From a virus, in the IMG/VR virus record IMGVR_UViG_3300021961_000044, positions 28,987 to 92,986 of that record: a DNA stretch of 64,000 bases; one strand, given 5' to 3'. How positions within the stretch are numbered: position 1 is the first letter of the stretch; every line of letters begins with the position of its first letter. The notes beneath the pieces were generated by a model that was not told the DNA's origin, ran no database searches, and saw nothing but the letters and a program-made list of their open reading frames with translations. Position numbers and translations under genes: made by a program. Shown here one piece after another: positions 3,632 through 56,897 of this stretch.

Positions 3632-3949
3632 ATGGAATTTAAAGTAACTCTGGTAACAGGACAAAATTACAGTGTTCGTCTTAAAGAAGACAATAAATTC
3701 AAAGTAATTTCAAATCTTACGCAGGCAGCAGAAGTGGCTAATTTTTCAGATTTAGGAGATTTTGACAATACTGGTGTTCAGGACGGATGGGTTCTGATGT
3801 ACGACTCTGCAACTGGAAAAATTAAAACAGTTAATCCAGATCTCGTGTTCAGTAAAGCTGTTGCGGATAACAGTCTTCCTAGTGAGTTTATTGATCAATT
3901 GGATGGAGATCTTGATGATAAGATCGATCTTGATGCGGGCTCTTTTTAG
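3632..3949 (+). CDS. Conserved cyanophage structural protein
   Basis: This 105-residue protein has a motif describing a beta hairpin (WVLMYDSATGKIKTVNPD) and ends KIDLDAGSF. Proteins with the same middle and end accompany fibre genes in many marine T4-like phages, but I know no assigned function. The terminus resembles that of the next protein (IDGGSF), suggesting a shared assembly tag. It lies four bases after the preceding gene and is probably co-transcribed with it. Confidence 0.65.
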   Translation: MEFKVTLVTGQNYSVRLKEDNKFKVISNLTQAAEVANFSDLGDFDNTGVQDGWVLMYDSATGKIKTVNPDLVFSKAVADNSLPSEFIDQLDGDLDDKIDLDAGSF

Positions 3950-3955
3950 AAAAAT

Positions 3956-3963
3956 TATAAATA
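3956..3963 (+). promoter_or_regulatory. Late promoter TATAAATA before fibre gene 3997
   Basis: An exact TATAAATA, the T4 late promoter consensus read by gp55-programmed RNA polymerase, lies 33 bases upstream of the fibre-like gene at 3997 in a non-coding gap. Confidence 0.65.
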
Positions 3964-3996
3964 ATTACACTAAAAATATAATAAGGTATAATTAAG

Positions 3997-10000: not shown

Positions 10001-10296
10001 TTACTGCCACAAACTTCAATACAACATCGGACATTACACTGAAGAAAAATGTCAATATTATTGAAAATGCTATTGATTCGGTAAAACTTATCAACGGTGT
10101 CAAATTTGACTGGAAAGATAACGGAAGACCTTCTATTGGTGTTATCGCTCAAGATGTTGAGCAAGTTTATCCAGAATTGGTTTATGAAGTAGACGGACAG
10201 AAGACATTAAACTATAGCGGTTTAATAGGTGTTCTTGTTGAAGCAGTTAAAGACCTTCAGCAACAAATTAACAATCTAAATAGTACTACAGGTTAA
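7099..10296 (+). CDS. Large collagen-like tail fibre with C-terminal S74 chaperone domain
   Basis: A 1065-residue modular fibre. Residues 1-50 are the RG...GELG...IGIG N-terminal domain shared by phage fibres. Long collagen-like runs of Gly-x-x (mostly QGxxG) alternate with globular modules: module A at 192-270, 362-440 and 641-719 (DVYLNGVRLSESEYVGTS), and module B at 81-133, 486-540 and 795-849 (HLWTWNGSSWDDVGNITG). Residues 970-1065 are an S74 intramolecular chaperone; the expected catalytic pair is Ser977 (TSD) and Lys982, as in self-cleaving endosialidase fibres. The collagen arms probably trimerise, and the protein is a likely receptor-binding or side-fibre component. Collagen-like phage fibres are known; this target is not. 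Confidence 0.85.
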   Translation: MATRIQIRRGTAAAWTSANPILAEGELGVELDTQKFKIGIGTTSWSGLSYATGIQGTTGAQGIQGTTGIQGDTGIQGITGRGLNIVGNVATVGDLPDPYSGSIGDAYVVTGTGDLHVYNGTSFDNVGQIVGPQGTTGAQGTQGIQGESIQGTTGYNGTQGTQGIQGDDGAQGIAGAFAAQGIQGTQGIQGREPDVAQTEKNTITFSATEGQVSFGATYVPNAIDVYLNGVRLSESEYVGTSGTHILLNDGANIGDVLDLVKFDFGNAFRGLQGVQGLQGLQGVQGLQGPQGTTGIQGDVGIQGSTGAQGTQGVQGTTGIQGDVGTQGTQGVQGVQGEIGSQGLDGAYAAQGIQGIQGIQGLTPDVAQTSKTTISFSANEGQTSFAGTYVAGAIDVFLNGVRLSESEYVGTSATNIVLNDPANAGDVLDLVKFDFGNALRGLQGVQGTQGIQGDLGIQGIQGLDGAYAAQGIQGPQGTDGVQGTSGRGVTILGSVSTSTNLPGYPTSYGGSVGDGYITLDTGHLWTWNGSSWDDVGNITGPQGTTGTQGTRGIQGTTGSQGQTGIQGDLGIQGIQGEALQGVQGTTGIQGDLGIQGATGAGIQGATGTQGETGTQGTTGTQGLDGAFAAQGIQGIQGIQGLTPDVAQTSKSTITFSANEGQTSFAGTYVAGAIDVYLNGVRLSDSEYVGTSATNIVLNDPANAGDVLDLVKFDFGNALRGLQGIQGTTGIQGFTGIQGSDGAQGLAGEYAAQGIQGTDGSQGTDGTQGTTGPQGTTGTQGTTGTQGTQGIQGDSGRGVTILGSVSTYTSLPGYPTSYSGNIGDGYITTNTGHLWTWNGSSWDDVGNITGPQGTTGTQGTQGVQGPSIQGAQGTTGIQGTTGTQGTTGPQGTTGLQGTTGLQGLTGIQGDTGLQGLTGVQGTDGLGALTGVTSVTSGTFFPLFVSGTGDVSPNIRTEATAFGYDAGTNTVTATNFNTTSDITLKKNVNIIENAIDSVKLINGVKFDWKDNGRPSIGVIAQDVEQVYPELVYEVDGQKTLNYSGLIGVLVEAVKDLQQQINNLNSTTG
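7339..9645 (+). repeat. Three copies of fibre module B (about 53-55 residues each)
   Basis: The module occurs at 7339-7497, 8554-8718 and 9481-9645, each starting RG(L/V) and ending with VG(Q/N)I(V/T)GPQG. Between the last two copies, bases 8659-8729 and 9586-9656 are identical over 71 bases, which points to recent duplication or gene conversion. Confidence 0.82.
7672..9255 (+). repeat. Three copies of fibre module A (79 residues each)
   Basis: The module recurs in frame at 7672-7908, 8182-8418 and 9019-9255. Each copy contains PDVAQT, a LNGVRLS(E/D)SEYVGTS core and GDVLDLVKFDFGNA. Copies two and three are nearly identical in protein and very close in DNA, while copy one is more diverged, indicating stepwise duplication. 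Confidence 0.85.
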
Positions 10297-10305
10297 TCTA
10301 GATAA

Positions 10306-10758
10306 ATGAACAAAACTAGAGAAGTTGCAAACTTAGTTACTGAGAATAATATCTTTGTTAGCACCTCTAATAATAGAGTTGGCGTCGGATCCACTGTACC
10401 AGTAAGTAAACTCGATGTTACTGGAGATGTGACTGCTGACAACTTCAATTCGGCTTCTGATGAGTCGATGAAGAAAAATATTGTCAGTATCGCAGATGCT
10501 ATCGCAAAACTCGATAGAATCAATGGCGTTTCTTTCGTATGGAAAGAAACAAATACCAAATCATATGGAGTTACTGCTCAAAATGTTCAGAGCGTATTTC
10601 CAGAACTGGTAAATGATAATGGATCACACTTAACAGTCAATTATAATGGGTTAATTGGCGTTTTGATTGCTGCCGTAAAAGAACAACAAAAACTAATTGG
10701 TACTTTGTCGGACAGATTAGATGCTTTAGAAGGAAATAACCAAAGTGAAAACGTTTAA
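10306..10758 (+). CDS. Small S74 chaperone-domain protein
   Basis: A 150-residue protein. Residues 20-40 carry the VGVGSTVPVSKLDVTGDVT fibre motif and residues 45-150 form a complete S74-type chaperone domain with candidate catalytic Ser51 (ASDES) and Lys56 and the NYNGLIGVLIAAVKEQQK helix at the end. It follows the giant fibre, which has its own S74 domain, by nine bases. It may be a separate fibre-tip chaperone, a partner for the 222-residue protein, or the remnant of a shortened fibre gene. The end overlaps the start of the next small gene. Confidence 0.75.
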   Translation: MNKTREVANLVTENNIFVSTSNNRVGVGSTVPVSKLDVTGDVTADNFNSASDESMKKNIVSIADAIAKLDRINGVSFVWKETNTKSYGVTAQNVQSVFPELVNDNGSHLTVNYNGLIGVLIAAVKEQQKLIGTLSDRLDALEGNNQSENV

Positions 10759-10900
10759 ACAATTTCAAGAGGATTGGAGTAATAAATATAAAAAGAGTAT
10801 CGATTGCTCTAACCCAAAAGGATTTTCCCAAAAAGCACATTGTGCGGGAAGAGCAAAAAGAGCAAGAGGTGAGAAAACAGCATCTAAATCAGTTTCATGA
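10745..10900 (+). CDS. Small basic Cys protein with MKTFKQF start
   Basis: A 51-residue protein from a GTG start. It begins MKTFKQFQED, resembling the capsid-targeting N-terminus of T4 internal proteins (MKTYQEFIAE). It continues with a DCSNPKGFSQKAHCAGR motif that I recognise as common in marine T4-like phage proteins of unknown function. The GTG start is supported by in-frame coding up to a TGA that overlaps the next ATG (ATGA). It overlaps the preceding gene by 14 bases. No function can be assigned; a virion-internal or DNA-associated role is an inference from its basic charge and its start. Confidence 0.6.
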   Translation: MKTFKQFQEDWSNKYKKSIDCSNPKGFSQKAHCAGRAKRARGEKTASKSVS

Positions 10901-12339
10901 AAAAGTATTGTCGTCTTTGTAAGAAAAAAGAACATCGTGAGGAATGCGGATTTGGTCCCAAAATGTGGGACAAGTATTCTGTAGATGATGCTACCGATAA
11001 AGAGCAAGAAACTGCTGCGAAAGAATCTGGAATTATTGATGTTGAAGAAGAAAACAAGAGTGGTGATAGTTCTTTGCGTGACTGGTTTACTAAGAGTCGC
11101 GCTTCTGATGGCACCCCTGGTTGGGTTCAATTGGGCGGCAAATATGCAGGAAAACCCTGCGCCAAACAACCAGGACAAACAACTAAACCCAAGTGCGGTT
11201 CCAGCAAAATGAAGCGCAATCTTGACAAAGGTGAAGAAGAAGCGGCATTCCGTCGTAAAAATCGTAAAGATCCAAATCCAGATAGAGAGGGTAAGGCAAT
11301 CAACGTGGCTACTGAAGAAATGAATTTGGATGAAAAGTGCTGGCAAGGATACACACAGAAAGGTATGAAAAAGAAAGGCAATAAAGTTGTTCCTAACTGT
11401 GTTTCTGTTGGCGAGGAAAAAGAAAAAGATCACGAATACTCTATGGCTCGTTCTGAGATAAAAACTCTCAAAAATGCTGCTAAGAGATTAGAAAAGAAAA
11501 TGGGCAAAAAGGGTGAGGGAAATCTTGAAGCCTGGGTTCAATCCAAAATCACAAAAGCGGCGGATTATATTGACACAGCTGCGGACTATGTTACCAATGA
11601 AGAAAAAGATGCATGTTACCATAAGGTAAAGTCTCGTTATAAAGTTTGGCCAAGTGCATATGCTTCTGGTGCATTAGTTAAGTGTCGCAAAAAAGGTGCT
11701 AAAAACTGGGGCAAGAGTACCAATAAAGAAGGATATGAATATTCAAACTGGAGAGAAGACTTCAAAGCAATGGAATATGAATTCATTGATGTGATTACTC
11801 CAGATCCACTGGAACCAACAAAGGGAATTGGCAGTGAAATGATCGGAATTGAAGAGGCAGTAAGAGTTCCTCAAAAAACAGGAACAATTGTTTTTGTATA
11901 CCTTACTTTTAGAGGAAAAGCATATACCATTCAAATGTTCTTCCCATCAGTAAAACTTCCAAGTAGATCTGAAATTCAAGATCAGATTGATAAGGTATAT
12001 CCTGGAGGAAAGGTGAGAAGTTATCACACATCTGATTACAAACCAGGAGAACCAGTTTTTCATACAGAAGATTGGCAAAAAGTTAATAGACAAGATAAAA
12101 CCGATGGATTAAGTCCTGCTGCTGTAAAAGCATACCGCAGAGAAAATCCAGGTTCTAAACTGAAGACCGCTGTGACCAAGAAACCATCAGAACTTAAAGC
12201 AGGTTCTAAGGATGCAAAGCGTCGTAAGTCGTTCTGTTCAAGAATGAGTGGCATGAAGAGGCGTCTCACTTCTGCTAAAACTGCCAGAGATCCTGATAGC
12301 AGAATCAACAAAGCACTCCGTCGTTGGAACTGTAACTAA
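10897..12339 (+). CDS. Modular basic Cys-rich protein of unknown function
   Basis: A 480-residue, Lys/Arg-rich protein made of several short modules. Residues 5-28 hold a CxxC...C finger (CRLCKKKEHREEC); 58-105 a tryptophan/cysteine module (LRDWFTKSRASDGTPGW); 146-170 CWQGYTQKG...NC; 240-272 CYHKVKSRYKVWPSAYASG; and 440-479 a Cys-Arg tail ending RRWNCN. These blocks recur in various orders in marine phage proteins, but their function is not known to me. Residues about 330-395 (VKLPSRSEI...YPGGKV) resemble the next protein. It is coupled to both neighbours by start/stop overlaps. DNA binding is plausible from charge and possible zinc sites but unproven. Confidence 0.7.
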   Translation: MKKYCRLCKKKEHREECGFGPKMWDKYSVDDATDKEQETAAKESGIIDVEEENKSGDSSLRDWFTKSRASDGTPGWVQLGGKYAGKPCAKQPGQTTKPKCGSSKMKRNLDKGEEEAAFRRKNRKDPNPDREGKAINVATEEMNLDEKCWQGYTQKGMKKKGNKVVPNCVSVGEEKEKDHEYSMARSEIKTLKNAAKRLEKKMGKKGEGNLEAWVQSKITKAADYIDTAADYVTNEEKDACYHKVKSRYKVWPSAYASGALVKCRKKGAKNWGKSTNKEGYEYSNWREDFKAMEYEFIDVITPDPLEPTKGIGSEMIGIEEAVRVPQKTGTIVFVYLTFRGKAYTIQMFFPSVKLPSRSEIQDQIDKVYPGGKVRSYHTSDYKPGEPVFHTEDWQKVNRQDKTDGLSPAAVKAYRRENPGSKLKTAVTKKPSELKAGSKDAKRRKSFCSRMSGMKRRLTSAKTARDPDSRINKALRRWNCN

Positions 12340-12668
12340 TGAAAAACTTCAAACAATTTCTATCAGAAAGCGTCACTATTCACGGTGATTTTAATGGAAC
12401 TCTTAATGTAGGTTCTGATCCAGTTCAACAAAAAGTTAATGAGCAGAATCAATATATTGCTGATGTTGTTTGGATGGGAAGTATTTACAGAATGAAAATC
12501 GAAAGAAAAGAATCGTTAAGACTTCCATCGACTCAAGAACTAGCAGAACAACTCCAGGGAGAATATCCTGGAGCAATCGTTCAAAGGATTTATCCATTAG
12601 AACCAAAACCAACAGTAAAAATCGCAGACGTAAAAAGGTATCATCCAGGAAAATTAGAGTGGGTATAA
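12339..12668 (+). CDS. Small protein with putative capsid-targeting sequence
   Basis: This 109-residue protein starts MKNFKQFLSES, closely resembling the T4 capsid-targeting sequence MKTYQEFIAEA of internal proteins; FLSE followed by a small residue also matches the T4 protease consensus (L/I)xE. The gp23 of this phage has the same FLSE at its predicted processing site. The body (LRLPSTQELAEQL, EYPGAIV) is related to residues 330-395 of the upstream 480-residue protein. Its ATG overlaps the previous stop (TAATGA). I infer a small internal head protein processed by gp21; no direct proof is in the sequence. Confidence 0.62.
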   Translation: MKNFKQFLSESVTIHGDFNGTLNVGSDPVQQKVNEQNQYIADVVWMGSIYRMKIERKESLRLPSTQELAEQLQGEYPGAIVQRIYPLEPKPTVKIADVKRYHPGKLEWV

Positions 12669-12671
12669 ATT

Positions 12672-14036
12672 ATGGCTCAGTGGAATAAAGAAACTCAAGA
12701 TTATTTAAATCAAGAAAGAACTCTTCATGAAGTTTTCATGTGTGCCGACAGGTATGGCAACATTGGAAATTGTGGCGTTTCCACTGGTGCTGGTGGCGGT
12801 AGTTATGATGCTTTTGGTCGTTCCAGAGTATCAGAACCATTCACGCTTGCTGATTATTCTCATCAATATGGACTCAATGAAGAGATTTTATCAAAGACAG
12901 TTGGCACTGCTTCTACAGTAGTACATGAACGGAATAAAGCATCAGCATCTCTAGTTGTTGGAACTGGTGCTACAGATAAAACCATTCACCAGACTCGTAT
13001 GTATCACCATTACATGCCTGGTAAGTCTCAGTTTGCTCTGTCCAGTTTCAATTTTCAAGATGTCAGAGAGAACACCGTAAAGAGAACTGGATACTTTGAC
13101 GACTACAATGGTGTTTTTGTTCAACAAGAAGGTGATGGAACAGTTTCTATCGTAAGAAGAGATTATGTTTCTGGCATTACATCTGACACGGTTATCAATC
13201 AGTCCAGTTGGAATCTTGATAAACTAGATGGAACAACTGTATCCGGTATTGAACTAGATTTTACTAAAACTCAATTATTCGCAACAGACTTTCAGTGGTT
13301 AGGTGTTGGTAGACTTCGTTGTGGATTTGTCATTGGTGGACAACTTATCTACTGCCATGAGTTCAATCATTCCAATATAGAAGAGAATGTCTATTGGTCT
13401 CAACCATCACTACCTATTCGTTGCGAGGTAGCAAATACGGGTGCTGCTGTTGGCATTACATCTATGCAGCAGATTTGTTCTACCGTCATGAGTGAAGGTG
13501 GATATGAGGAAAGTGGATTTGAATTCTCTACTGGCGATACAACTGCAATTTCTCTTCCTGGTTCTAATAATGCTCCTAATCATATCAAGTGTGTAATAGC
13601 AATTCGTCTTAAGAATACTATTAATGGGTATCAAAATAGAACGACTGTAAGGATTACAAACCTGGAACTTCTGTCTACTGCGGCACCTTGTAAGTTTGAC
13701 CTTTACAGAATGCCTAGTAATTCTAATATTACTGGAGGAACATGGGTAGATTTTGATGGTGATTATTCTGGTGTCCAGTATAATGTTGGTGTTGGAACAA
13801 ACTTTAATCTCACTGGAGCATATTCCAAACTCACTGGATTCTTAGCAGCAAACAATCCTTCGGGCAACCAAAATTCTGGCGATGCTCGTCTCAGTCCATC
13901 TGCAGCAAAAAAATCTTATCTATCACAGAACATAGATAGTAATGATAGTAATATTTTTGCTGTAGTAGTTCAAAATATGACAACAAATACGGCAAATGAA
14001 ATTTATGCTGCAGTTCAATGGAGAGAAACTAGATAG
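12672..14036 (+). CDS. Virion structural protein, family not recognised
   Basis: A 454-residue protein with a Gly/Ser/Thr-rich, beta-type composition. The N-terminal part (YDAFGRSRVSEPFTLADYSH) contains a pattern that I associate with phage structural proteins. The C-terminal half is Asn-rich and ends in an AVQWRETR strand. It lies between a small virion-like gene and the large terminase gene, in the late block. No catalytic motif, signal peptide or membrane segment is visible. A tail or head decoration role is inferred only from location and composition. Confidence 0.6.
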   Translation: MAQWNKETQDYLNQERTLHEVFMCADRYGNIGNCGVSTGAGGGSYDAFGRSRVSEPFTLADYSHQYGLNEEILSKTVGTASTVVHERNKASASLVVGTGATDKTIHQTRMYHHYMPGKSQFALSSFNFQDVRENTVKRTGYFDDYNGVFVQQEGDGTVSIVRRDYVSGITSDTVINQSSWNLDKLDGTTVSGIELDFTKTQLFATDFQWLGVGRLRCGFVIGGQLIYCHEFNHSNIEENVYWSQPSLPIRCEVANTGAAVGITSMQQICSTVMSEGGYEESGFEFSTGDTTAISLPGSNNAPNHIKCVIAIRLKNTINGYQNRTTVRITNLELLSTAAPCKFDLYRMPSNSNITGGTWVDFDGDYSGVQYNVGVGTNFNLTGAYSKLTGFLAANNPSGNQNSGDARLSPSAAKKSYLSQNIDSNDSNIFAVVVQNMTTNTANEIYAAVQWRETR

Positions 14037-18939: not shown

Positions 18940-20616
18940 ATGTCTAGGCTTTTTGGCTTTTCTATTGAAGATTCAGACGATAAAAAACCCGAACTCACAC
19001 CGTCACCCGTTCCTCCTTCTAAGGAGGACGGGTCTGACTTTTATCTGAGTAGCGGGTTTTTTGGATCTTATGTTGATATAGAAGGAGTATATAGATCTGA
19101 ATTCGATCTAATTAAAAGGTATAGAGAAATGGCATTGCACCCAGAGGTGGATGGTGCAATTGAAGATATTGTAAATGAAGCGATTGTCTCCGATACAAAT
19201 GACAGTCCTGTACAGATTGAGTTGTCAAATTTAAATGCCAGTGACGGCATTAAGAAAAAAATTCGCAACGAGTTTAAATATATTTTAGAGTTATTAGATT
19301 TTGATAAAAAAGCACACGAAATCTATAGAAACTGGTATATAGATGGTAGAATTTATTATCACAAAATAATTGACGTAAAAAATCCTAGTGAAGGAATTCA
19401 AGAACTTAGATATATTGACGCATCTAAAATGCGTTATATTCGTCAAGAGAAAAAGAGAAAAGGAGATGAATTAAGACTTTCAAGTAATACAGAAAATCCA
19501 TTAGATTATAATTTTCCAGAAATAGAAGAATATTTTATTTACACCCAAAAAGAAACTTATCCTATGGGAACACCTAGACCTGGAGGATATAGTGGAAGTT
19601 CAAATGGAATCAAAATGACAAAAGATTCCATTTCATATTGCACTTCTGGATTAGTGGATAGAAATAAAGGAACTACCCTTTCCTATCTCCATAAAGCAAT
19701 TAAATCTCTCAATCAACTTCGTATGATTGAAGACTCTTTGGTAATTTATAGATTATCAAGAGCACCTGAGCGTAGAATATTTTATATCGATGTTGGCAAT
19801 TTGCCCAAAGTTAAGGCAGAACAATATCTTCGTGACGTTATGATGCGTTATCGCAACAAACTTGTTTATGACGCAAACACAGGAGAAATCAGAGATGACA
19901 AAAAATACATGTCCATGCTTGAGGATTTTTGGCTCCCTAGACGAGAAGGTGGGAGAGGAACTGAAATCTCAACGTTGCCAGGTGGCCAAAACCTTGGAGA
20001 AATCACTGATATTGAATATTTTAAAAAGAAACTCTTCCGTTCGCTTAACGTCCCAACATCGAGAATGGATGGAGAAGGTGGGTTTAACCTTGGAAGATCT
20101 TCTGAGATCCTGAGAGATGAAGTTAAATTCAGTAAGTTTGTTGGACGTTTGAGAAAGAGATTTTCTGGAATGTTTAATGATATGTTGAGAACTCAACTCC
20201 TTCTCAAGAATATCATTACTCCAGAAGATTGGAACATAATGAGTGAGCATATTCAATATGACTTCCTCTATGATAATCATTTTGCAGAAATGAAAGAAGC
20301 GGAGTTGATGAATGAAAGACTTGCTTTAGTTCAAACTGCAGAACCATATATTGGAAAATATTATTCACAAGATTATGTAAGACGTAAAATTCTCCGTCAA
20401 ACAGATCAAGAAATTATTGAAGAAGATATGATGATCAAAAAAGAAATTAAAGACGGAATAATTCCAGATCCAAGTGTACCTGTAGATCCAGAAACAGGAA
20501 TGCCAATAGATTCTGCAGCAGGTATGGATTTAGGAAAACCTGTAATGGAACCCGAACTTAATGCGCCAGAAGTAGATGCATCTGCTATCGAAATGCCAAA
20601 AGGCGGCGAAATTTAA
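18940..20616 (+). CDS. gp20: Portal vertex protein gp20
   Basis: A 558-residue portal subunit (T4 gp20 is 524). Hallmarks are EGVYRSEFDLIKRYREMALHP near residues 48-68, DGRIYYHKIIDV near 134 and the conserved SRAPERRIFYIDVGNLP segment near 273, widely used as a cyanomyovirus marker region. The dodecameric portal starts head assembly and is the docking ring for the gp16/gp17 motor and the neck. The last 60 residues are acidic and Pro-rich. Downstream order (small core gene, structural gene, gp21, gp22, gp23) follows the T4 head cluster. Confidence 0.96.
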   Translation: MSRLFGFSIEDSDDKKPELTPSPVPPSKEDGSDFYLSSGFFGSYVDIEGVYRSEFDLIKRYREMALHPEVDGAIEDIVNEAIVSDTNDSPVQIELSNLNASDGIKKKIRNEFKYILELLDFDKKAHEIYRNWYIDGRIYYHKIIDVKNPSEGIQELRYIDASKMRYIRQEKKRKGDELRLSSNTENPLDYNFPEIEEYFIYTQKETYPMGTPRPGGYSGSSNGIKMTKDSISYCTSGLVDRNKGTTLSYLHKAIKSLNQLRMIEDSLVIYRLSRAPERRIFYIDVGNLPKVKAEQYLRDVMMRYRNKLVYDANTGEIRDDKKYMSMLEDFWLPRREGGRGTEISTLPGGQNLGEITDIEYFKKKLFRSLNVPTSRMDGEGGFNLGRSSEILRDEVKFSKFVGRLRKRFSGMFNDMLRTQLLLKNIITPEDWNIMSEHIQYDFLYDNHFAEMKEAELMNERLALVQTAEPYIGKYYSQDYVRRKILRQTDQEIIEEDMMIKKEIKDGIIPDPSVPVDPETGMPIDSAAGMDLGKPVMEPELNAPEVDASAIEMPKGGEI

Positions 20617-20864: not shown

Positions 20865-21413
20865 ATGGCTCATAGACCTGTAGGATTATCAACATCATTG
20901 GCAACTAGTGCCACTTCTGGGATGACAAGTTCTTTTGTTGTCTCTTCAAATGTCATTAGGGTTGTTGCCGTAACGGCTGGTGCCCATGTAAAAATTGATA
21001 GCGCACCTACCGCCACTACTAATGATTATTATATTCCTGCAGGAACTTCCGCTACCCTTGCTTTAACAAAAGCATCTAATAGAGTTGTTGGAATTACTAC
21101 AGGAGCTTCTACCACAATTACTTTCCCAGAAGGAACACAGTGTCCATTTGGAGTTGGAGATTTTATTACAATAACAGGTGGATCAAATTCGGCGCTGAAT
21201 CTCCTCCATGTTGAAGTAACTAGTGTAGATACCACTTCAAATTTCAATGGAAATTTCCAAACCACATGTACAGTTGCTTATGACTCTAGTGCTGCTGGAG
21301 ATTTTGCAGGAGCAGATGTCACAGCAAGCCTCTCAGTGAGATTGGCAGCTAGAACTGATACTGGCACTGGAACTTTACATGCACAACAAGTTCAAATTTC
21401 AGGAGTAGCATAA
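20865..21413 (+). CDS. Structural protein between portal and prohead protease
   Basis: A 182-residue, Ser/Thr/Ala-rich, Lys-poor protein with regularly alternating hydrophobic residues, suggesting a beta sandwich. Conserved-looking parts are IRVVAVTAGAHVKIDSAPTA and YYIPAGTSATLALTKA. Proteins of this kind occupy this slot in marine T4-like phages, but I know no assigned function. It has a late box of its own and ends in TAATG overlapping the gp21 start. A head-associated role is inferred from its position. Confidence 0.6.
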   Translation: MAHRPVGLSTSLATSATSGMTSSFVVSSNVIRVVAVTAGAHVKIDSAPTATTNDYYIPAGTSATLALTKASNRVVGITTGASTTITFPEGTQCPFGVGDFITITGGSNSALNLLHVEVTSVDTTSNFNGNFQTTCTVAYDSSAAGDFAGADVTASLSVRLAARTDTGTGTLHAQQVQISGVA

Positions 21414-22063
21414 TGAAATTAATTAGGGAAGAAATTGAAAACGTAGAAATTATCGTAGAATCAAAAGGCGGTAAAAAGTCTCTTTACATCGAAGGAGTTT
21501 TTCTCCAAGGAGACATCAAAAACCGTAATGGTCGTATGTATCCAATGGAGACTCTTCGTCGCGAAGTTTCTCGCTACAATGAAAATCATGTTGTTGCTGG
21601 TAGAGCACTTGGAGAACTCGGTCATCCTGATGGTCCAACCGTCAATTTAGATCGTGTTTCTCATAAGATTGTTTCTCTGAAAGAAAGCGGATCCAACTTT
21701 ATCGGAAAAGCAAAAATTCTCGGAACACCAATGGGAAAAATTGCGGCTTCTCTTTTAGATGAAGGCGTAAAACTCGGTGTTTCTTCTAGAGGTATTGGAT
21801 CTTTAAGAGAAGACCGTAATGGTATCAAAGTTGTTGGTGAAGATTTTATGCTAGCTACTGCTGCTGATATCGTTGCCGATCCTTCCGCTCCTGATGCATT
21901 CGTATCAGGAATTATGGAAGGAAAAGAATGGGTTTGGGAAGGAGGCATTCTTCGTGAAAAGTTTGCTGAGCAAACCAAACGCAGAATTAATACTTTAGTC
22001 GATCAAAGAAAACTTGATGAACATAAGTTAAATTTGTTTGATGACTTCTTAAGAAGTCTCTAA
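21413..22063 (+). CDS. gp21: Prohead core protease gp21
   Basis: A 216-residue serine protease of the prohead core (T4 gp21 is 212). GELGHPDGPTVNLDRVSH (residues 68-85) carries the catalytic His71, and KLGVSSRG (120-127) the catalytic serine, as in T4-type and herpesvirus-like maturation proteases. It degrades the scaffold gp22, trims the N-terminus of gp23 and cleaves internal head proteins after (L/I)xE. In this genome such a site is visible in gp23 and in two small proteins with T4-like capsid-targeting starts. It is translationally coupled to the upstream gene. Confidence 0.95.
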   Translation: MKLIREEIENVEIIVESKGGKKSLYIEGVFLQGDIKNRNGRMYPMETLRREVSRYNENHVVAGRALGELGHPDGPTVNLDRVSHKIVSLKESGSNFIGKAKILGTPMGKIAASLLDEGVKLGVSSRGIGSLREDRNGIKVVGEDFMLATAADIVADPSAPDAFVSGIMEGKEWVWEGGILREKFAEQTKRRINTLVDQRKLDEHKLNLFDDFLRSL

Positions 22064-22127: not shown

Positions 22128-23231
22128 ATGTCTAGTGACAACAATTTACAAGAAATGGAAGCAGGCACTAAGCAATCCAAAACTGCCGTTAATGCTGGTG
22201 CTGCAGCGGCGGATTCAATGGATACTTCAGTTGCCGGAAGCTATGAAGATCTCGGTGGTCCTACCCCCGATAACTACAGATCTGACGACGATTCAGCAAA
22301 GTTAAAGACCCCTGGTGGATCTTTAAAGCAAGTTAAGGATGTAGTTAATAAGGGTGCTGGTGCCGCTGAAGCAGCTAAAGGAGTCAAGGAAGAAGAAGAT
22401 CTTTCTGACGAAGAAGTAGTTGCTGAAGAAGAAACTACTGAAGAAGAAGTAGTTGCTGAAGAAGAAGTCACTGAAGAAACTACTGAAGAAGAAACTGAAG
22501 AAGTCATTTCTGAGTATGACATCGAAGAAGATGTCAATGCTCTTCTTCAAGGTGAGGAACTCTCCGAAGAATTCCAAGAAAAAGCACGCATGATTTTTGA
22601 AGCAGCAATCAACTCTAAGGTTGCTGTTATCGAACAACAAATCAAAGAAGAATATGCTGCAGCTTTCGCTGAAGCTATCGAAGAAGAGAAGACTGCTCTT
22701 GCTGAAAGAGTAGATTCTTATCTCGAATATGTTGCTGACGAGTGGATGACCGAAAATACACTCGCAGTTGAAGCAGGTCTTAAGACCGAAATGACTGATT
22801 CATTCCTTGTTGGAATGAAGCAACTTTTTGAAGAACATTATGTAACCATCCCTGAAGATAAATATGATGTGCTTGAAAGCATGGTAGATAAACTTGATGA
22901 AATGGAAACAAAACTCAACGAGCAAATTGAGAAAAACGTTTCCCTAAACAAGCGTCTCGCAGAGTCGGTTGCTGAAGGAATCTTAGATCAAGTCTCTGAA
23001 GGTCTTGCACAGACACAGAAAGAGAAGCTCGCTTCACTTGCCGAAAGTGTTGAGTTTGAAAGTGAGACTCAATATCGTGAAAAACTGGAGACGCTGAAGG
23101 AGTCATATTTTAGCTCCAAGTCTTCATCTGCTAAGACTGAATCCATTTCTGAAGGAGTAGACGTAACTCCCGAATCTGTTTCGGGTACTATGGCTGCATA
23201 CCTGAGAACCATGGGTTCCATTAGCAAATAA
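22128..23231 (+). CDS. gp22: Prohead scaffold protein gp22
   Basis: A 367-residue acidic scaffold protein (T4 gp22 is 269). Residues 85-130 are an extreme Glu/Val/Thr-rich repeat tract (EEVVAEEETTEEE). The C-terminal two-thirds is helical and coiled-coil-like (KYDVLESMVDKLDEMETKLN), and the end is SGTMAAYLRTMGSISK, typical of cyanophage gp22. It forms the core around which gp23 assembles and is degraded by gp21 before DNA packaging. Position between protease and capsid genes is as in T4. Confidence 0.92.
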   Translation: MSSDNNLQEMEAGTKQSKTAVNAGAAAADSMDTSVAGSYEDLGGPTPDNYRSDDDSAKLKTPGGSLKQVKDVVNKGAGAAEAAKGVKEEEDLSDEEVVAEEETTEEEVVAEEEVTEETTEEETEEVISEYDIEEDVNALLQGEELSEEFQEKARMIFEAAINSKVAVIEQQIKEEYAAAFAEAIEEEKTALAERVDSYLEYVADEWMTENTLAVEAGLKTEMTDSFLVGMKQLFEEHYVTIPEDKYDVLESMVDKLDEMETKLNEQIEKNVSLNKRLAESVAEGILDQVSEGLAQTQKEKLASLAESVEFESETQYREKLETLKESYFSSKSSSAKTESISEGVDVTPESVSGTMAAYLRTMGSISK

Positions 23232-23284: not shown

Positions 23285-24706
23285 ATGTTCCAATCCGAGC
23301 ATCTGCAGGAAAAGTGGGCACCTCTCCTCAATTATGAGGGTCTTGATCCTATCAAAGATTCGCACAGAAGAGCTGTAACCGCAGTCCTGCTTGAAAACCA
23401 AGAAAAATTCCTCCGTGAACAGTCTGCATTTGAGCAGTCTGGTTCATTCCTTTCCGAAGCTCCAACCAACAGCGCTGGTTCTTCCCCCGCTGGTTTCAGT
23501 GGTGGCGCAACTGCAGCTGGTCCTGTTGCAGGTTTCGACCCAGTTCTGATCTCACTGATCAGACGCTCCATGCCTAACCTGGTCGCTTATGACCTGGCTG
23601 GCGTTCAGCCTATGAGTGGTCCTACTGGACTCATCTTCGCGATGCGTTCACGTTACACCAATCAGTCTGGAACCGAAGCATTCTTCAACGAGCCTGATTC
23701 GGCATTCTCCGGACGTGACAATGCATCCAACGTTGAGACAGGTCATAGCGACGGTCTCGCTGGTATGGGTACTACCGCTCAGAGCGGCAGCAACCCATCT
23801 GTTCTGAACCCTGTTGGTGCTGCTGCTTCCCTGAGCTACAATGTCGGTCAGGGCATGACTACTGCTGAGGCAGAAGGTCTTGACGGCACTGGCGATGATG
23901 CATTCAACCAGATGGCATTCTCGATCGAGAAAGTCACTGTTACCGCCAAGTCACGCGCACTGAAGGCTGAGTACAGCTTAGAACTGGCTCAAGACCTCAA
24001 GGCAATCCACGGTCTGAACGCTGAAGCGGAACTCGCAAACATTCTCTCCACAGAGATTCTTGCTGAGATCAACCGCGAAGTTATCAGAACTATCTACAAG
24101 GTTGCTGAAGTAGGTGCTGTTCAGAACGTTGCTACCGCTGGTACATTCGACCTCGACGTTGACTCCAATGGTCGTTGGTCTGTTGAGAAGTTCAAGGGTC
24201 TCCTGTTCCAAATCGAGCGCGATGCTAACGCAATTGCACAAAGAACTCGTAGAGGAAAGGGCAACATCATCATGTGCTCTGCTGACGTTGCTTCAGCACT
24301 GACCATGGCTGGTGTTCTCGATTACACCCCTGCACTCAACGCTAACCTGAACGTTGATGACACCGGTAACACCTTCGCTGGTGTTCTCCAAGGTAAGTAT
24401 CGCGTCTACATCGATCCTTATTCGGCAAACCTGACCTCCGCTAACGGAGCACCTGGTAACCAGTACTACGTTGTTGGTTACAAGGGTACTTCCCCTTATG
24501 ACGCAGGTCTGTTCTATTGCCCATACGTTCCTCTCCAAATGGTCCGTGCCGTTGGTGAGAACTCCTTCCAGCCTAAGATTGGCTTCAAGACCCGTTACGG
24601 TCTGGTCGCTAACCCATTCGCAGAAGGAACCAACCAGGGTCTCGGTGCTCTGCACGTTAACCAAAACCGTTACTACAGAAGAGTTGCGGTTAAGAACCTC
24701 ATGTGA
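23285..24706 (+). CDS. gp23: Major capsid protein gp23
   Basis: A 473-residue major head protein (T4 gp23 is 521). The N-terminal propeptide (WAPLLNYEGLDPIKDSHRRA) ends at a likely gp21 site, FLSE58/A59. The mature part holds PMSGPTGLIFAMRSRY, the classic gp23 signature used in marine surveys, and SLELAQDLKAIHGLNAEAEL. The DNA is visibly richer in G and C (frequent GGT, CTG, AAC, ACC codons) than the surrounding genes, consistent with selection for very high expression. A strong terminator follows within 30 bases of the stop. Assignment is secure. Confidence 0.97.
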   Translation: MFQSEHLQEKWAPLLNYEGLDPIKDSHRRAVTAVLLENQEKFLREQSAFEQSGSFLSEAPTNSAGSSPAGFSGGATAAGPVAGFDPVLISLIRRSMPNLVAYDLAGVQPMSGPTGLIFAMRSRYTNQSGTEAFFNEPDSAFSGRDNASNVETGHSDGLAGMGTTAQSGSNPSVLNPVGAAASLSYNVGQGMTTAEAEGLDGTGDDAFNQMAFSIEKVTVTAKSRALKAEYSLELAQDLKAIHGLNAEAELANILSTEILAEINREVIRTIYKVAEVGAVQNVATAGTFDLDVDSNGRWSVEKFKGLLFQIERDANAIAQRTRRGKGNIIMCSADVASALTMAGVLDYTPALNANLNVDDTGNTFAGVLQGKYRVYIDPYSANLTSANGAPGNQYYVVGYKGTSPYDAGLFYCPYVPLQMVRAVGENSFQPKIGFKTRYGLVANPFAEGTNQGLGALHVNQNRYYRRVAVKNLM

Positions 24707-47346: not shown

Positions 47347-47516
47347 TGGATCTTCCTATTAATGATAAAGAACTTGGCATAATTGTAAATGCTTTACTTC
47401 TTGGTGGAGACTCTTCTTTATACCAAAAACTAAAAATCATCAAAGAGATTCGTGAAGAAAATCCTGATGGTCCTTATAAAAAAATTGCAAGAGAAAAATT
47501 TGGGTTTGTTATCTAA
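47346..47516 (+). CDS. Small hypothetical protein
   Basis: A 56-residue protein (start MDLPINDKELGIIVNALLLG) with a helical body and a Lys-rich end. Its ATG overlaps the previous stop (TGATG), and its stop overlaps the next start (TAATG), so it lies in a continuous coupled chain. No motif recognised. Confidence 0.55.
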   Translation: MDLPINDKELGIIVNALLLGGDSSLYQKLKIIKEIREENPDGPYKKIAREKFGFVI

Positions 47517-47977
47517 TGTTTTTTAAAAAAATTAGTTTAGTTACTGGTGGATTTGATCCAATTCATAGTGGACATATATCTTATTTCACAAGAGCTAAAG
47601 ATTTTTCCGATTATCTTGTAGTCGGACTTAATACAAACGAATGGTTAACTAATAAAAAAGGTCAATATTTTCAGTCCTGGGTTGAGAGGGCAGATATAAT
47701 TCGTCATCTCAATATGGTTGATGCTGTAATCACTGTTCCTGATGATGAAGTTGGATCTGCTTGTGGTGCAATTGCTAAATGCTTAGAGATTGCAGATACC
47801 GTTGTTTTTTGTAACGGTGGAGATAGAGGATCCTCCAATACTCCTGAATTGGATATGTATGGCAATAACCCAAGAGTTCAATTTGAATTTGGAATTGGTG
47901 GAGATGAAAAAATGAACAGTAGTTCATGGATCCTTAGGGGTTATTTTGAAAGACAAAGAAAATTATTGGGAATTTGA
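47516..47977 (+). CDS. Cytidylyltransferase-like nucleotidyltransferase
   Basis: A 153-residue single-domain nucleotidyltransferase of the HxGH class. The ATP/CTP site GGFDPIHSGH is at residues 11-20 and the second motif KMNSSSW at 132-138 corresponds to the ISSS motif. Size and pattern resemble glycerol-3-phosphate cytidylyltransferase and the RfaE C-terminal domain, which make activated precursors for cell-surface sugars or lipids. The true substrate cannot be read. It lies between gp43 and uvsX in a coupled run. Confidence 0.82.
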   Translation: MFFKKISLVTGGFDPIHSGHISYFTRAKDFSDYLVVGLNTNEWLTNKKGQYFQSWVERADIIRHLNMVDAVITVPDDEVGSACGAIAKCLEIADTVVFCNGGDRGSSNTPELDMYGNNPRVQFEFGIGGDEKMNSSSWILRGYFERQRKLLGI

Positions 47978-51968: not shown

Positions 51969-52919
51969 ATGGCATCAAATACACCAGGAGCGGATTTAAA
52001 CGAGATACACCTTGGTTTTATATTGAATAATGGTGAATGGACGGGTGGCATGGAAGCAGCAAAACCCACTTATGATCTTAGAAAATCGAGTGTAAACAAA
52101 GATGAGCAAACTTGGAGAATTGGTCAAACATATTCAATGAAAGATGCCTTTTTACAAAAAGCATCAGAATTGGGATATGGTGGTGGAGTAAAAAATGTTC
52201 ACTGGACTGCTAGAGCAGATTTTTCTTTTACTGATATTAATCCTAGATTTGAAGCAATAAGCAAAAATAATCCATCAGATTTGCTTGTAGAATTTAATAG
52301 ATCTACTAATGTTGACAATTTTTTGGGATTGTCTGCTAAATCCGTTAGAAGTCCAACAGGAAGAGCACCCTTTAAAAATAAGGGAATGAATGAGATACAA
52401 AAAGAACTTTTGGGTGGAACTCAATTAACAACCTTTATATCCGAGCAAACAACTCATTTTCTTAATATGCATCCAAAGTATTCTTCTGTTGCATCAGCAA
52501 GAAAAACTCAAATAAAAGCAGAAAGTGAAACAATACAAAAAGATATTGCTGGTTATGCTAATGATTATATGTATGCCGGACTTCAAGATGTTTTGATTAA
52601 AGGACTGCAATCGGCAGGAGATATTGATGTAAAATACTACTGTCTTAATAATCTTTATGACGTAATAAGACTTCCTAGATTTGTTAAAGTTACTGGGAGG
52701 GGAACAACTCAAAATGCGTATAATGCAGTTGTTACTGATCCATTGAATAGTTCTGCATTTAGATCACTTGTTTCTAATGGCAGAGTGACATATGAAAAAT
52801 TAGGTCAAACTAGTGTTGGCATTAAGGTATCAAACAAAAGAATTTTAAAAATGAGATTTAAATTTGAATCTACACCAATGGCAACTCCAATGAAGTTCAG
52901 TGTTGAATATTGGGATTAG
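51969..52919 (+). CDS. Late protein of unknown function
   Basis: A 316-residue protein starting MASNTPGADLNEIHLGFILN. It has several basic clusters (SARKTQIKAESET; TGRGTTQNAY), an aromatic-rich middle (YYCLNNLYDVIRLPRF) and a C-terminal strand pair (KRILKMRFKFES, MKFSVEYWD). The alternating K/D/E residues could serve a nuclease fold, but I cannot pick out a catalytic set. It has its own late box and stands at the head of the second late block. Function not recognised. Confidence 0.6.
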   Translation: MASNTPGADLNEIHLGFILNNGEWTGGMEAAKPTYDLRKSSVNKDEQTWRIGQTYSMKDAFLQKASELGYGGGVKNVHWTARADFSFTDINPRFEAISKNNPSDLLVEFNRSTNVDNFLGLSAKSVRSPTGRAPFKNKGMNEIQKELLGGTQLTTFISEQTTHFLNMHPKYSSVASARKTQIKAESETIQKDIAGYANDYMYAGLQDVLIKGLQSAGDIDVKYYCLNNLYDVIRLPRFVKVTGRGTTQNAYNAVVTDPLNSSAFRSLVSNGRVTYEKLGQTSVGIKVSNKRILKMRFKFESTPMATPMKFSVEYWD

Positions 52920-52956: not shown

Positions 52957-54183
52957 ATGAAAAGTTTTTTCCAGTTTCTAACTGAGGCAGAATCACAGGC
53001 GTCTGCACAGGCAAGAAAATTAAATCTTAAGAGTGATGGACACGGTGGATGGTTAGACACTCGTGGAAACTTTGTGGCGACCACTGAAAAGGGAAAGTTG
53101 GTTTTTGTAGATAAAAAGAAACCAAAGGTGAAAGATGAACCAACAAGAAAACCAAGAACAGCACAAGCAGAACCTAAAACAGAACCTAAGAAACCTGCAC
53201 CTGAGACTGCAGAAAAGGCGAGATCAAAAGAAGTTGAAGGAGATCAGGATTCTAGACAAACTTCAGAAACTTTGACCGTTGCATTTGGTCGTTTCAATCC
53301 TCCTACTGTAGGTCATGAAAAACTTCTTTCTGCTGCGAAGAAAGCATCTGCAGGTGGAGACTTGAAGATTTATCCATCAAGAACTCAAGATCCAAAGAAA
53401 AATCCATTGGATCCCGATATGAAAATTTCATACATGAAGAAGATGTTCCCCGACTATGCGGAGAATATTATTAATGATGATGAAATGAGATCTATATTTA
53501 ATGTATTAGTTGCTGCATCTGAAAAAGGATATGCTGCAGTAAACATTGTTGTGGGATCTGATCGTCAATCCGAATTTGAAAATCTTGCAACTAAGTACAA
53601 TGGTGAACTTTATAACTTTGAATTGATTCGTGTAATTTCTGCTGGCGTTAGAGATGCTGATGCTGAAGGTGTAGAAGGAATGTCCGCATCCAAGATGCGT
53701 AAAGCAGTAATGGATGATGACTTTGAATCATTCCGTAAAGGAACTCCTAAGTCTCTTGATGATGGCGATACTCAAGCACTTTTCGATGCAGTTCGCACTG
53801 GAATGAAACTGAAGGCAAAGAAGAAAGAAGTTTCTGAAATGTGGGAAATCGCTCCTAAGTTTGATCCAAAAGGACTAAGAGATAATTACGTTTCTGGTGA
53901 TATCTTTAAACTCGGAGATATTGTTGAAAATTTAAATACTGGATTAGTTGGTAAAATTATTCGTAGAGGAACAAATCATTTGATTTGTGTGACAAAAGAA
54001 GAATACATGTTTAAATCATGGATTCGTGATGTAATGGAAGCAGTTGTAAATTATCCTGGACCATCAGGAGTTCCTGCTGACCAGAGAGAGATTGGCACAG
54101 ACTCTCATAGAAAATATGCAATGAGAATGACGGGAACATTCGATATTCGTAATTTCATAAATAAGTATAAGGCTAAAAAGTAA
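52957..54183 (+). CDS. Nucleotidyltransferase with putative capsid-targeting N-terminus
   Basis: A 408-residue protein in four parts. Residues 1-11, MKSFFQFLTEA, resemble the T4 capsid-targeting start MKTYQEFIAEA, with FLTE as a likely gp21 site. Residues 22-50 are a GWLDTRGNF module, and a Lys/Pro/Glu linker follows (51-105). Residues 106-285 form a nucleotidyltransferase of the HxGH class: GRFNPPTVGH at 111-120 and GMSASKMR at 241-248. Residues 310-365 (DIVENLNTGLVGKIIRRGTN) form a small SH3/KOW-like domain. I infer an enzyme packaged inside the head and possibly injected; its substrate is unknown. It has a late-type box. Confidence 0.72.
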   Translation: MKSFFQFLTEAESQASAQARKLNLKSDGHGGWLDTRGNFVATTEKGKLVFVDKKKPKVKDEPTRKPRTAQAEPKTEPKKPAPETAEKARSKEVEGDQDSRQTSETLTVAFGRFNPPTVGHEKLLSAAKKASAGGDLKIYPSRTQDPKKNPLDPDMKISYMKKMFPDYAENIINDDEMRSIFNVLVAASEKGYAAVNIVVGSDRQSEFENLATKYNGELYNFELIRVISAGVRDADAEGVEGMSASKMRKAVMDDDFESFRKGTPKSLDDGDTQALFDAVRTGMKLKAKKKEVSEMWEIAPKFDPKGLRDNYVSGDIFKLGDIVENLNTGLVGKIIRRGTNHLICVTKEEYMFKSWIRDVMEAVVNYPGPSGVPADQREIGTDSHRKYAMRMTGTFDIRNFINKYKAKK

Positions 54184-54197
54184 ACAGACTTATACTC

Positions 54198-56897
54198 ATG
54201 AATCATCTTAACGATATCTCTAAGGTTTACTTGCAGAACATTGCTTCGCAAGAAACTCAGGAAGAGGGGTACAAACCCATTGATAAAAAGAAGGAAAGTG
54301 CAATGTATCGTCGTGCTGGAAATTTAGCACGTACTTCTTTGTCTTCTAGAGGCAAGAAGAAAGAGGAAGCACAAGATAAGTCTTCTAAAATTGTTTCTGC
54401 GATCACTCGTCAGAAAGAAAAAGAGCGTTTCGATAAGATGGCAGATATTAAAGCTAGAGATAACTATAATGAAGAAGTTGAGCAGGTTGATGAGAACGTA
54501 GCAACTGGTAAGGCAAGAAGAGCAAAGTTCGGTGGAATTGCTCAAAGAGTTGGTTCTGGTGAAGCGGTAAGTAATCAAGAAAAATCTGATAGATTTGCCA
54601 AGTCTGTTGCGGCAAAGAAAGCAGCATTGAAAGCAGCTGGAGACGCAGCACACAAAGCAGCATCCGATAAAGGTATGAGTCCTGCGGAGGCAGAAATGCG
54701 TAGAAAGGCAGCAGAGAGAAAAGCTGCCCGTGCGAAGAAGAGACAAATGGGAGAAGCGCTTGATCCTGTCGGTCAGGAAGATGCAGATGTGGATAATGAT
54801 GGTAAGAAGAACACTAAGACTGATAAGTATCTTCTGAAGCGTCGTAAGGCAATCGGCAAAGCAATTGCTACAAGAAAGGAAGAAACAGAAATAACAGAAA
54901 TTCATACTCAAGCACATACTCCTCACGAAGTTCCTACTAAAGATCTTAAGGGTCTTGTAAAGAAAGCAGTCAAGAGAATTGATGCTGACAATGATGGTGA
55001 TGTAGATACTAGCGACCCAAAAGAAACTGAAATGGGTGAGTTTATTCCTTCACCTGACGGAAAGAAAAAAATTAAACCAATTGTTCAGAAAGAAGGTTTC
55101 TCTAATTGGAGACATGAACTCTCTGAAGTTATTTCTGATGATTCTGATGAACAAAAAAAAATTAAAGAAAAAAAAGTAAATAATAAAATTGTAATCAATC
55201 CACAATTAAAAGAATCTGTAGAACAACTTGGTGGAGAATTAATTTCCATTGAGGAAGTGGAACTTGACGAAGAAGCACTTGTAGAATTTGCTGTCGATTC
55301 TTTATATGAGGAATTTCTTGAGGAAGGATATGATGAAGATACTATTGAAGAAGTAATTGAATCGGCAATTCAGGAAGCAACTGTTACATACGGTCACGAT
55401 ACTCGCAAACCAAAAACAGCTGCTCAACGCGCTGATGATAGAGTTAGTGCAGTTGCTAGATTTGCAAGAGCAAAAATTAAAAAGTATGCTAAAAAAGCAG
55501 TCGTAGGTGGAGCAAGAGCAGTTGCTAAGGGCGCAACTAAACTTGCTAATAAAGTTGAGCGTGATAACCCAAATACTTTTAGCGGTAAAAAAAAACCTAG
55601 AAGTGCATCCCCCTATCGTGGACAGGGTGTAGGAAGAAAAGAAAAAGTTGGTGCTACTTCAACAGCAGCACCAGCAGCAACAAAAACTCCAAAAAGCAGC
55701 AGGTCTACAGCACAAAAATCTCAAAGTGCAAAAACAAAAGCAAAGAAAAATAAATTAGACGATTTGCTTTCTTCCATTAGAAATGAAGCAGTAGATACAT
55801 TGGTAGATGAAGGAATTGGAATGACCATGGCTAATGCTATTGGCAATCCTCCTGCATTGAGCAAGAGAATGAAACTGAAGCAAGCACTTTTGAATAGAGA
55901 AATTAATAAGGAAACTGCAAAGAATAAAAAAAGAAAGTTCAGTGGCAAAGCTGCGGTTTCTGAAGAGGAGACTCCTGCGGAAAGACTTGATCGTATCTCT
56001 AGAGAAAAGGTAGCTGCTCAAAAAGCAGTTGCCGATGCTAAAAAGAAAGAGAGAGAAGATTCCGCTGCTGCATTCCAAGCACATAAAAAAGAAGTTCTTG
56101 CTAAGGGTGGTCGTCCAGTAGACGCACTTGATTCATGGCAAAAGAAAAAAATGAGTGAAGAGACTGTTGATGAAGCAGTCAAGGGTCAAGATACCGAAAG
56201 CAGAAGAGAAGCAGCAGTAGAAAGAAGATCTGGTGAGAAGCGTCTTCCTCCTTCAAAAGGAAAGGGATATGCTGATCAGCAGCAACAACAAATTTCTTAC
56301 ATGGATAAAGTGACTAAGAAAAATAAGAATGTTGTTGGACTGGTTACTAAAGAAGAGGCTGAGCAGGTTGATGAAAAACTCAACATGAAGAAAGAAAAGA
56401 TGGGTGATGTCATCAAAGACTTCTATAAGTCCGATGCTCCCCAGTTTAAGGGTAAGTCAAAAGAAAAGCGTCGTCAGATGGCTATCGCTGCTAAGTTAAC
56501 TGCTGAACGTGGTGGTAAGAGACTTGGTGAAGGTGCAACAGAAACAGCGATGTCTCCTCAAGAACTTCAACTTCAGAAGAGAAAAACACAGATCGATATG
56601 ATGATTTCTAGAAAGAGAAGACAAGCTCTTGATAAAGAAGGTCAGTCTGCTGGAGGTGTTAATGAGTCTTCTGAAGATCGTTTAAGAGACATGCGTCAAG
56701 AGCGTGGTGGTGTTGACGGAAACACTAGATATGATCGTCCTCCCGCTAAGAAACTCTCTAATGCTGAGTTTGGCATCAAACCAGGTAAAACCGCAGTTCA
56801 AAAGGAACTTGAGAAAAAGTATGGCAAAGGCAAGTCTGCACTTGATATTGTAAAAGCAGAGATTCGTGCCAAGCATGGCAAGGGATCTTTAAAATGA
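54198..56897 (+). CDS. Large Lys/Glu/Ala-rich late protein with EF-hand-like loops
   Basis: An 899-residue protein of extreme composition (Lys, Glu, Ala, Arg) with few aromatics. Two calcium-loop-like segments occur: residues 197-208 (DVDNDGKKNTKT) and 262-273 (DADNDGDVDTSD), the second a perfect 12-residue EF-hand loop. Further marks are FSNWRHELSE near 301, Ala/Lys-rich stretches (about 420-460), and KGKSKEKRRQMAIAAKL near 751, a motif seen in marine phage structural proteins. The acidic VDE tetrapeptides recur. A head-internal, DNA-compacting or tail-associated role is plausible from charge and neighbours, but not proven. Confidence 0.65.
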   Translation: MNHLNDISKVYLQNIASQETQEEGYKPIDKKKESAMYRRAGNLARTSLSSRGKKKEEAQDKSSKIVSAITRQKEKERFDKMADIKARDNYNEEVEQVDENVATGKARRAKFGGIAQRVGSGEAVSNQEKSDRFAKSVAAKKAALKAAGDAAHKAASDKGMSPAEAEMRRKAAERKAARAKKRQMGEALDPVGQEDADVDNDGKKNTKTDKYLLKRRKAIGKAIATRKEETEITEIHTQAHTPHEVPTKDLKGLVKKAVKRIDADNDGDVDTSDPKETEMGEFIPSPDGKKKIKPIVQKEGFSNWRHELSEVISDDSDEQKKIKEKKVNNKIVINPQLKESVEQLGGELISIEEVELDEEALVEFAVDSLYEEFLEEGYDEDTIEEVIESAIQEATVTYGHDTRKPKTAAQRADDRVSAVARFARAKIKKYAKKAVVGGARAVAKGATKLANKVERDNPNTFSGKKKPRSASPYRGQGVGRKEKVGATSTAAPAATKTPKSSRSTAQKSQSAKTKAKKNKLDDLLSSIRNEAVDTLVDEGIGMTMANAIGNPPALSKRMKLKQALLNREINKETAKNKKRKFSGKAAVSEEETPAERLDRISREKVAAQKAVADAKKKEREDSAAAFQAHKKEVLAKGGRPVDALDSWQKKKMSEETVDEAVKGQDTESRREAAVERRSGEKRLPPSKGKGYADQQQQQISYMDKVTKKNKNVVGLVTKEEAEQVDEKLNMKKEKMGDVIKDFYKSDAPQFKGKSKEKRRQMAIAAKLTAERGGKRLGEGATETAMSPQELQLQKRKTQIDMMISRKRRQALDKEGQSAGGVNESSEDRLRDMRQERGGVDGNTRYDRPPAKKLSNAEFGIKPGKTAVQKELEKKYGKGKSALDIVKAEIRAKHGKGSLK

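Follow-up and report, generated by a model that had tools for sequence, protein, structure and literature searches.

A capsid-targeting-like tag suggests that a cyanophage nucleotidyltransferase is head cargo

The tagged nucleotidyltransferase and its locus

The window, meaning the whole 64-kb stretch of DNA that was analyzed, is part of a 92,986-base virus record, and its source is a T4-like cyanomyovirus, a virus of marine cyanobacteria. The genes and features relevant to this study are as follows (a slash marks a predicted protease cut).

12339..12668, +: second tagged gene, 109 aa (MKNFKQFLSESV), with MKNFKQFLSE/SV, found with the strict pattern
18940..20616, +: portal protein gp20, which marks a T4-type head (PF07230, E 4.5e-193)
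21413..22063, +: prohead protease of the gp21 type (Peptidase_S77), expected to carry out the processing (PF03420, E 3.6e-34)
22128..23231, +: scaffold of the gp22 type, with which the tag is expected to pair (PF25623, E 1.9e-78)
23285..24706, +: major capsid protein gp23 (PF07068, E 8.8e-152)
23447-23461, +: predicted gp23 maturation site SFLSE/AP, from the window phage's own sequence
47516-47977, +: second nucleotidyltransferase, 153 aa, untagged (PF01467, E 4e-10; RfaE-like phrog_7878)
51969-52919, +: gene just upstream of the tagged nucleotidyltransferase, with an LGLSAK stretch
52957..54183, +: tagged nucleotidyltransferase gene (P0001), 408 aa, ATG start (phrog_395, E 4e-106)
52957..52986, +: capsid-targeting-like tag MKSFFQFLTE, residues 1-10, from its match to the T4 tag and its conservation
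52984..52989, +: predicted site of prohead-protease cleavage, E10/A11 (LTE/A), from the site sequence
52990..53115, +: SDGHGGW module, residues 12-53, a small beta module (HMM matches; pLDDT about 80)
53116..53265, +: linker, residues 54-103, unconserved (column entropy 2.5 bits) and disordered (pLDDT about 30)
53266..53826, +: (H/T)xGH nucleotidyltransferase domain, residues 104-290 (fold matches, motifs)
53305..53316, +: TVGH motif, residues 117-120, from the sequence
53677..53700, +: GMSASKMR motif, residues 241-248, the equivalent of the superfamily's second signature, from the sequence
53869..54042, +: C-terminal beta-rich domain, residues 305-362 (phrog_4808, E 6e-10; strands in the model)
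54198..56897, +: low-complexity gene downstream, 899 aa; its homologue SSCSM1_92 is annotated as a virion protein

The protein belongs to phrog_395, labeled a cyanophage "cyti(ti)dyltransferase" and corresponding to the T4-GC190 family, which is present in 558 phage records, mostly cyanophages; its closest match in a cultured phage is from Synechococcus phage S-SM2 (79% identity). As an earlier sequence-only reading had it, the translation starts with MKSFFQFLTEA, and GRFNPPTVGH and GMSASKMR both occur in it. The motif which that reading took to be of a complete HxGH class is in fact TVGH, with threonine replacing the first histidine. The threonine variant is known in the (H/T)xGH superfamily, relatives have HAGH or HKGH at this position, and the catalytic motifs are strictly conserved. 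The C-terminal domain (phrog_4808) occurs as a separate small protein, Syn1_162, in Syn1 (positions 3034-3312 of L189), and several GenBank records repeatedly misname it a ribonucleotide reductase alpha subunit.

An AlphaFold2 model of the protein (mean pLDDT 70, the catalytic domain mostly 80-92, confident in the folded parts only) was searched with Foldseek against the PDB. The matches were phosphopantetheine (PPAT), NMN (NadM) and NaMN (NadD) adenylyltransferases, with E from 3.5e-5 and target TM-scores of about 0.6-0.68, and the superfamily enzymes among the best 50 PDB matches were all adenylyltransferases; identity as a cytidylyltransferase is not supported by this search, none appearing among these best 50 fold matches listed. 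The Rossmann-like domain combines an (H/T)xGH motif with an SxSxxR-type signature, as in the (H/T)xGH superfamily (PF01467). The protein scores 15.3 bits against the Pfam CTP_transf_like (PF01467) gathering cut-off of 21 bits, and 48 of 48 family members match PF01467 weakly (best E 2e-4), so that its placement is based on fold and motifs and not on the Pfam cut-off. NMNAT (NadD, NadM, NadR) was likewise dismissed as a firm identity, with NCBIfam equivalog scores of 13.1 bits (cut-off 112.45) and 11.5 bits (cut-off 341.15), and searching PDB sequences with the protein and its profile returned low-complexity or chance matches only. The fold matches together with the missed Pfam and NCBIfam cut-offs therefore define a member of the (H/T)xGH superfamily, likelier to transfer adenylyl than cytidylyl groups. 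That the enzyme part may be an adenylyltransferase whose substrate is a small phosphorylated metabolite, NMN for example, is a tentative assignment.

The gene just upstream gave no family match in the family search. The protein at the same position in phage S-SCSM1, SSCSM1_90 (positions 140-1474 of L192), is a virion protein with FGVSLKK, and this stretch and that of the upstream gene are possibly PD-(D/E)xK-like. SSCSM1_93 (S-SCSM1 91626-91835), a virion protein of 69 aa, has tag-like residues at its C-terminus (TFKEFLEYIE).

A T4-type tag and its predicted cut site

T4 internal proteins IPII and IPIII both start MKTYQEFIAEA, and the sequences of the two proteins bear out what the sequence-only reading had said of them. 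In the T4 capsid-targeting sequence (CTS), residues 4 and 7 matter for targeting and residues 8 and 10 for processing, gp21 cuts after (L/I)xE, and the tags act through the prohead core (PMC9026906). The window protein shares with IPII and IPIII the start, the spacing, aromatic or hydrophobic residues at 4 and 7 and an LxE-type site at residues 8-10, and the same phage encodes an S77 prohead protease and a scaffold, the latter with five LxE-type sites; it differs from them in that its cargo is an unrelated enzyme domain, with an extra module after the tag. LTE/A is the sole [LI]xE[ASG] site among the protein's 408 residues, and the local sequence around the predicted cut, FLTE/AE, is also present in T4 gp23, at its known cleavage site. 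Cleavage after E10 is likely. The sequence-only reading had also drawn a parallel with T4 Alt, a packaged ADP-ribosyltransferase. This stands as a functional parallel, in that the window protein too would be a head-carried and injected enzyme, and fails as a likeness of tags: Alt starts MELITELFDEDTT, without the MKTYQEF tag, which rules it out as a tag homologue, and there is no sequence or fold relation between the two.

A strict pattern, M[KR]x[FYL]xx[FY][LIMF]xE, was run at every ATG, GTG or TTG start followed by at least 50 codons. The window yields 2 matches at 1188 starts, where column composition would give 0.035, T4 yields 3 at 2426 (IPII, IPIII and gp61.1), and S-CREM2, S-SZBM1 and S-SCSM1 yield 4 at 3854, 2 at 4011 and 2 at 3429, respectively, with 0.04-0.1 expected from column composition per sequence set. 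Wherever annotation exists, all matches lie at annotated gene starts. The tag match is real and more than chance. The rest of the same genome outside the window (29 kb) holds no more strict tags.

Among the 80 homologues returned by a scan of IMG/VR, all 80 keep the tag. M1, K2, F7 and E10 are invariant, and F4, L8 and A11 are conserved at 94%, 98% and 96%. Variation is greatest at residue 9 (31%), which is the x of LxE. The conserved positions coincide with those important in T4 CTS mutants. The underlying codons vary synonymously (AAA/AAG at K2, TTT/TTC at F7, GAA/GAG at E10, four leucine codons at residue 8 and four alanine codons at residue 11), which places selection at the level of the protein.

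Whether homologues share the start, a point on which the sequence-only reading had staked its claim, has a divided answer. The tag is present in the whole near family and in S-SM1, ACG-2014d, S-CREM2 and S-B68, one residue shorter in S-SZBM1 and S-WAM1 (MRFRQFIIEA) and as a variant in Melnitz-3. It is missing from the homologues in Syn1 and HTVC008M despite their T4-like heads, and from the jumbo phages slurp01, K64-1 and PA5oct, which have other heads and carry the bare enzyme. In these sequences the tag accompanies T4-type heads, though not universally, Syn1 and HTVC008M being untagged. The tagged phages group together in a tree of the catalytic domain; we claim no single origin of the tag because this grouping has weak support and long branches.

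Relatives in virions and the shared module

Mass spectrometry (MS) of purified virions has detected members of this family in four phages: T4-GC190 in S-SM1 (PMC3037559), ORF91 in S-SCSM1 (PMC9602691), S-SZBM1_140 in S-SZBM1 (PMC9146016) and gp154 in S-CREM2 (PMC10665884). Full-length identity between ORF91 and the window protein is 72%; ORF91 starts MKSFLQFLKEAAESGASVQAKKLNLKSDGHGGW and carries the tag MKSFLQFLKEA. For S-CREM2, 52 of 221 genes are virion-detected (PMC10665884), and the four genes with a strict tag, encoding the SAM lyase gp6, gp13, the APH-like kinase gp14 and the nucleotidyltransferase gp154, are all among them (chance 0.0028, on small counts). Over the three proteomes of S-CREM2, S-SZBM1 and S-SCSM1, 5 of 8 tagged genes were detected against 1.5 expected (p 0.008, again on small counts). 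The three tagged proteins absent from the published virion proteomes, S-SZBM1_191, S-SZBM1_192 and S-SCSM1_30, are short (105-165 aa), and two of these, S-SZBM1_191 and S-SCSM1_30, are the conserved homologues of the 109-aa tagged protein of the window.

These detections could be read in another way, with the protein as an ordinary intracellular auxiliary metabolic enzyme of NAD, CoA or sugar-nucleotide metabolism that is made late and reaches virion samples by carry-over from the lysate, its N-terminus being a coincidental helix. The S-CREM2 and S-SCSM1 authors do allow for carry-over of abundant lysate protein (PMC10665884, PMC9602691), the published annotation is that of an auxiliary metabolic gene (PMC9146016), and the window contains a second, untagged adenylyltransferase-like gene (47516-47977). 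We nevertheless hold this reading to be very unlikely: tag and LxE pattern are kept position by position in 80/80 homologues, the family was detected in four virion preparations made independently, every tagged gene of S-CREM2 encodes a virion protein, and the linker adjoining the module is wholly unconserved.

The SDGHGGW module itself recurs on other enzymes. A profile built from residues 12-54 of the near family matches, with E from 1e-8 to 1e-22, the kinases of S-CREM2 (gp14), S-B68 and MC09 and, in the same range, phrog_3561 nuclease-like proteins of these three phages, of which S-CREM2 gp12 is annotated as Cas9-like. With gp12 as the query, a direct BLAST search finds the P-TIM68, P-SSM2 and Bellamy nucleotidyltransferases as well. 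Proteins of the gp12 group have FASFMAEA, FSSFIAEA or FSSFLKEA ahead of the module, and the regions after it vary between phages; both module-bearing S-CREM2 proteins, gp12 and gp14, were virion-detected. The mixed module alignment proved too divergent for scanning contigs, and two narrower alignments were used instead. When viral contigs were surveyed, a strict tag stood directly before the module in 126 of 127 distinct open reading frames combining module and catalytic domain, the lone untagged one being cut by a contig end. The remaining module proteins are kinases, HNH-like proteins or proteins of unknown kind, and not every one has a recognizable tag. Such recurrence, usually behind similar tags, suggests a modular loading system, in which the module would most likely bind to the core, to the DNA or to the inner shell.

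Of the virion kinases and nuclease-like proteins that share the module and tag-like stretches (S-CREM2 7704-10313 and 10579-12846; L097; L098), the nuclease-like group has variable C-termini that are reminiscent of polymorphic effectors. The virion-detected SAM lyase of S-CREM2 (3837-5081, -; PF23780, E 2e-19) starts MKDFDSFLEE, a T4-type tag; its removal of SAM on entry could forestall restriction.

Proposed loading, delivery and fate of the enzyme

The proposed route is the following. Residues 1-10 would serve as a capsid-targeting sequence of the T4 type and tie the protein to the prohead scaffold core, presumably through gp22, after which the gp21-type protease would cut between E10 and A11 and free a mature protein of 398 residues inside the maturing head. 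The SDGHGGW module would be a shared cargo part, found as well on the virion kinases and nuclease-like proteins. Enclosed with the DNA, the mature enzyme would leave with it at infection and be at work in the new cell before any expression of phage genes. The head-packaging claim of the sequence-only reading finds good support in the tag with its LxE/A site, its conservation, the co-encoded gp21 and the homologues in virions. We thus consider it probable that the protein is a head cargo enzyme, targeted by its tag, packaged and cut by gp21, and packaging of the window nucleotidyltransferase, taken by itself, is very likely. Injection is plausible, and for the further step, ejection with the DNA and action in the new cell ahead of phage gene expression, we lean slightly in favor.

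An enzyme that docks on the scaffold might also act, or have a structural part, in head assembly, what is found in virions then being a remnant that is neither ejected nor active in the next host. T4 tags do act via the core (PMC9026906), and the downstream neighbor and further proteins of the same gene cluster are virion proteins. Set against this are the strict conservation of the catalytic motifs and the nature of the other tagged S-CREM2 proteins, which are enzymes with an obvious intracellular use (the SAM lyase, E 2e-19, and the kinase), and we judge an assembly role rather unlikely. Should the enzyme be injected, it might modify host proteins or RNA directly, for example by AMPylation, as T4 Alt does by ADP-ribosylation. 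The module and the C-terminal beta domain could indeed bind macromolecules, but the nearest folds are PPAT, NadM and NadD, and this mode of action appears quite unlikely. The (H/T)xGH enzymes of this fold known so far act on small molecules. An NMN-type adenylyltransferase delivered at entry could, if the enzyme is one, raise or restore NAD, which would fit a role against NAD-depleting defenses.

More broadly, the head-cargo reading may extend to a modular delivery code in Kyanoviridae, for which the balance tips marginally to the positive side: a T4-type tag with its LxE site, often followed by an SDGHGxW adaptor, placed on different enzymes (nucleotidyltransferases, Ser/Thr kinases, SAM lyases and HNH-like nucleases with variable C-termini), would have this effector set loaded into the head and injected into cyanobacteria before phage gene expression. 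S-CREM2 gp14, gp6 and gp12 share this kind of N-terminal tag, and gp12 and gp14 also the SDGHGxW module. They differ from the window protein in their catalytic domains, and gp12 also in where its tag-like stretch lies, around residues 17-26 and not at the very start.

That the family associates with virions and may be injected has been proposed before; host entry of the enzyme is already suggested by virion-proteome authors. T4-GC190 and S-SCSM1 ORF91 ("NMNAT") are of the same family, with the same tag and module, and distant similarity is the basis of their published substrate names. Earlier virion reports on the family name neither a targeting tag nor a cleavage site in the available text, and no cyanophage use of the term "capsid targeting sequence" is recognizable by title or abstract in the searched literature, which covers subscription papers thinly. 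Within that literature, the tag, the cut site and the module common to other virion enzymes appear to be new. The tag would account for the recurrent finding of the enzyme's relatives inside purified virions. How enzymes come to be in cyanophage virions has so far been without an explanation, for which a ten-residue code with a cut site offers a prediction from sequence; if true, it supplies, for phages among the most abundant in the ocean, a list of candidate injected effectors, and with it a tag for loading chosen proteins into their heads.

The prediction is checkable in existing mass-spectrometry data. Computed [M+2H]2+ values for the predicted cut form and the intact form are 509.762 (AAESGASVQAK) and 574.283 (EAAESGASVQAK) for S-SCSM1 ORF91, 571.794 (ADEKQQQAPK) and 694.322 (NFSSFLTEADEK) for S-CREM2 gp154, and 422.196 (EETEAHK) and 833.883 (FDAFLTEEETEAHK) for S-CREM2 gp14. 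In T4 itself, gene 61.1 (18966-19130, -) encodes 54 aa that start MKTFKEFIKED, a strict CTS match, from which the pattern predicts gp61.1 to be another small internal head protein.
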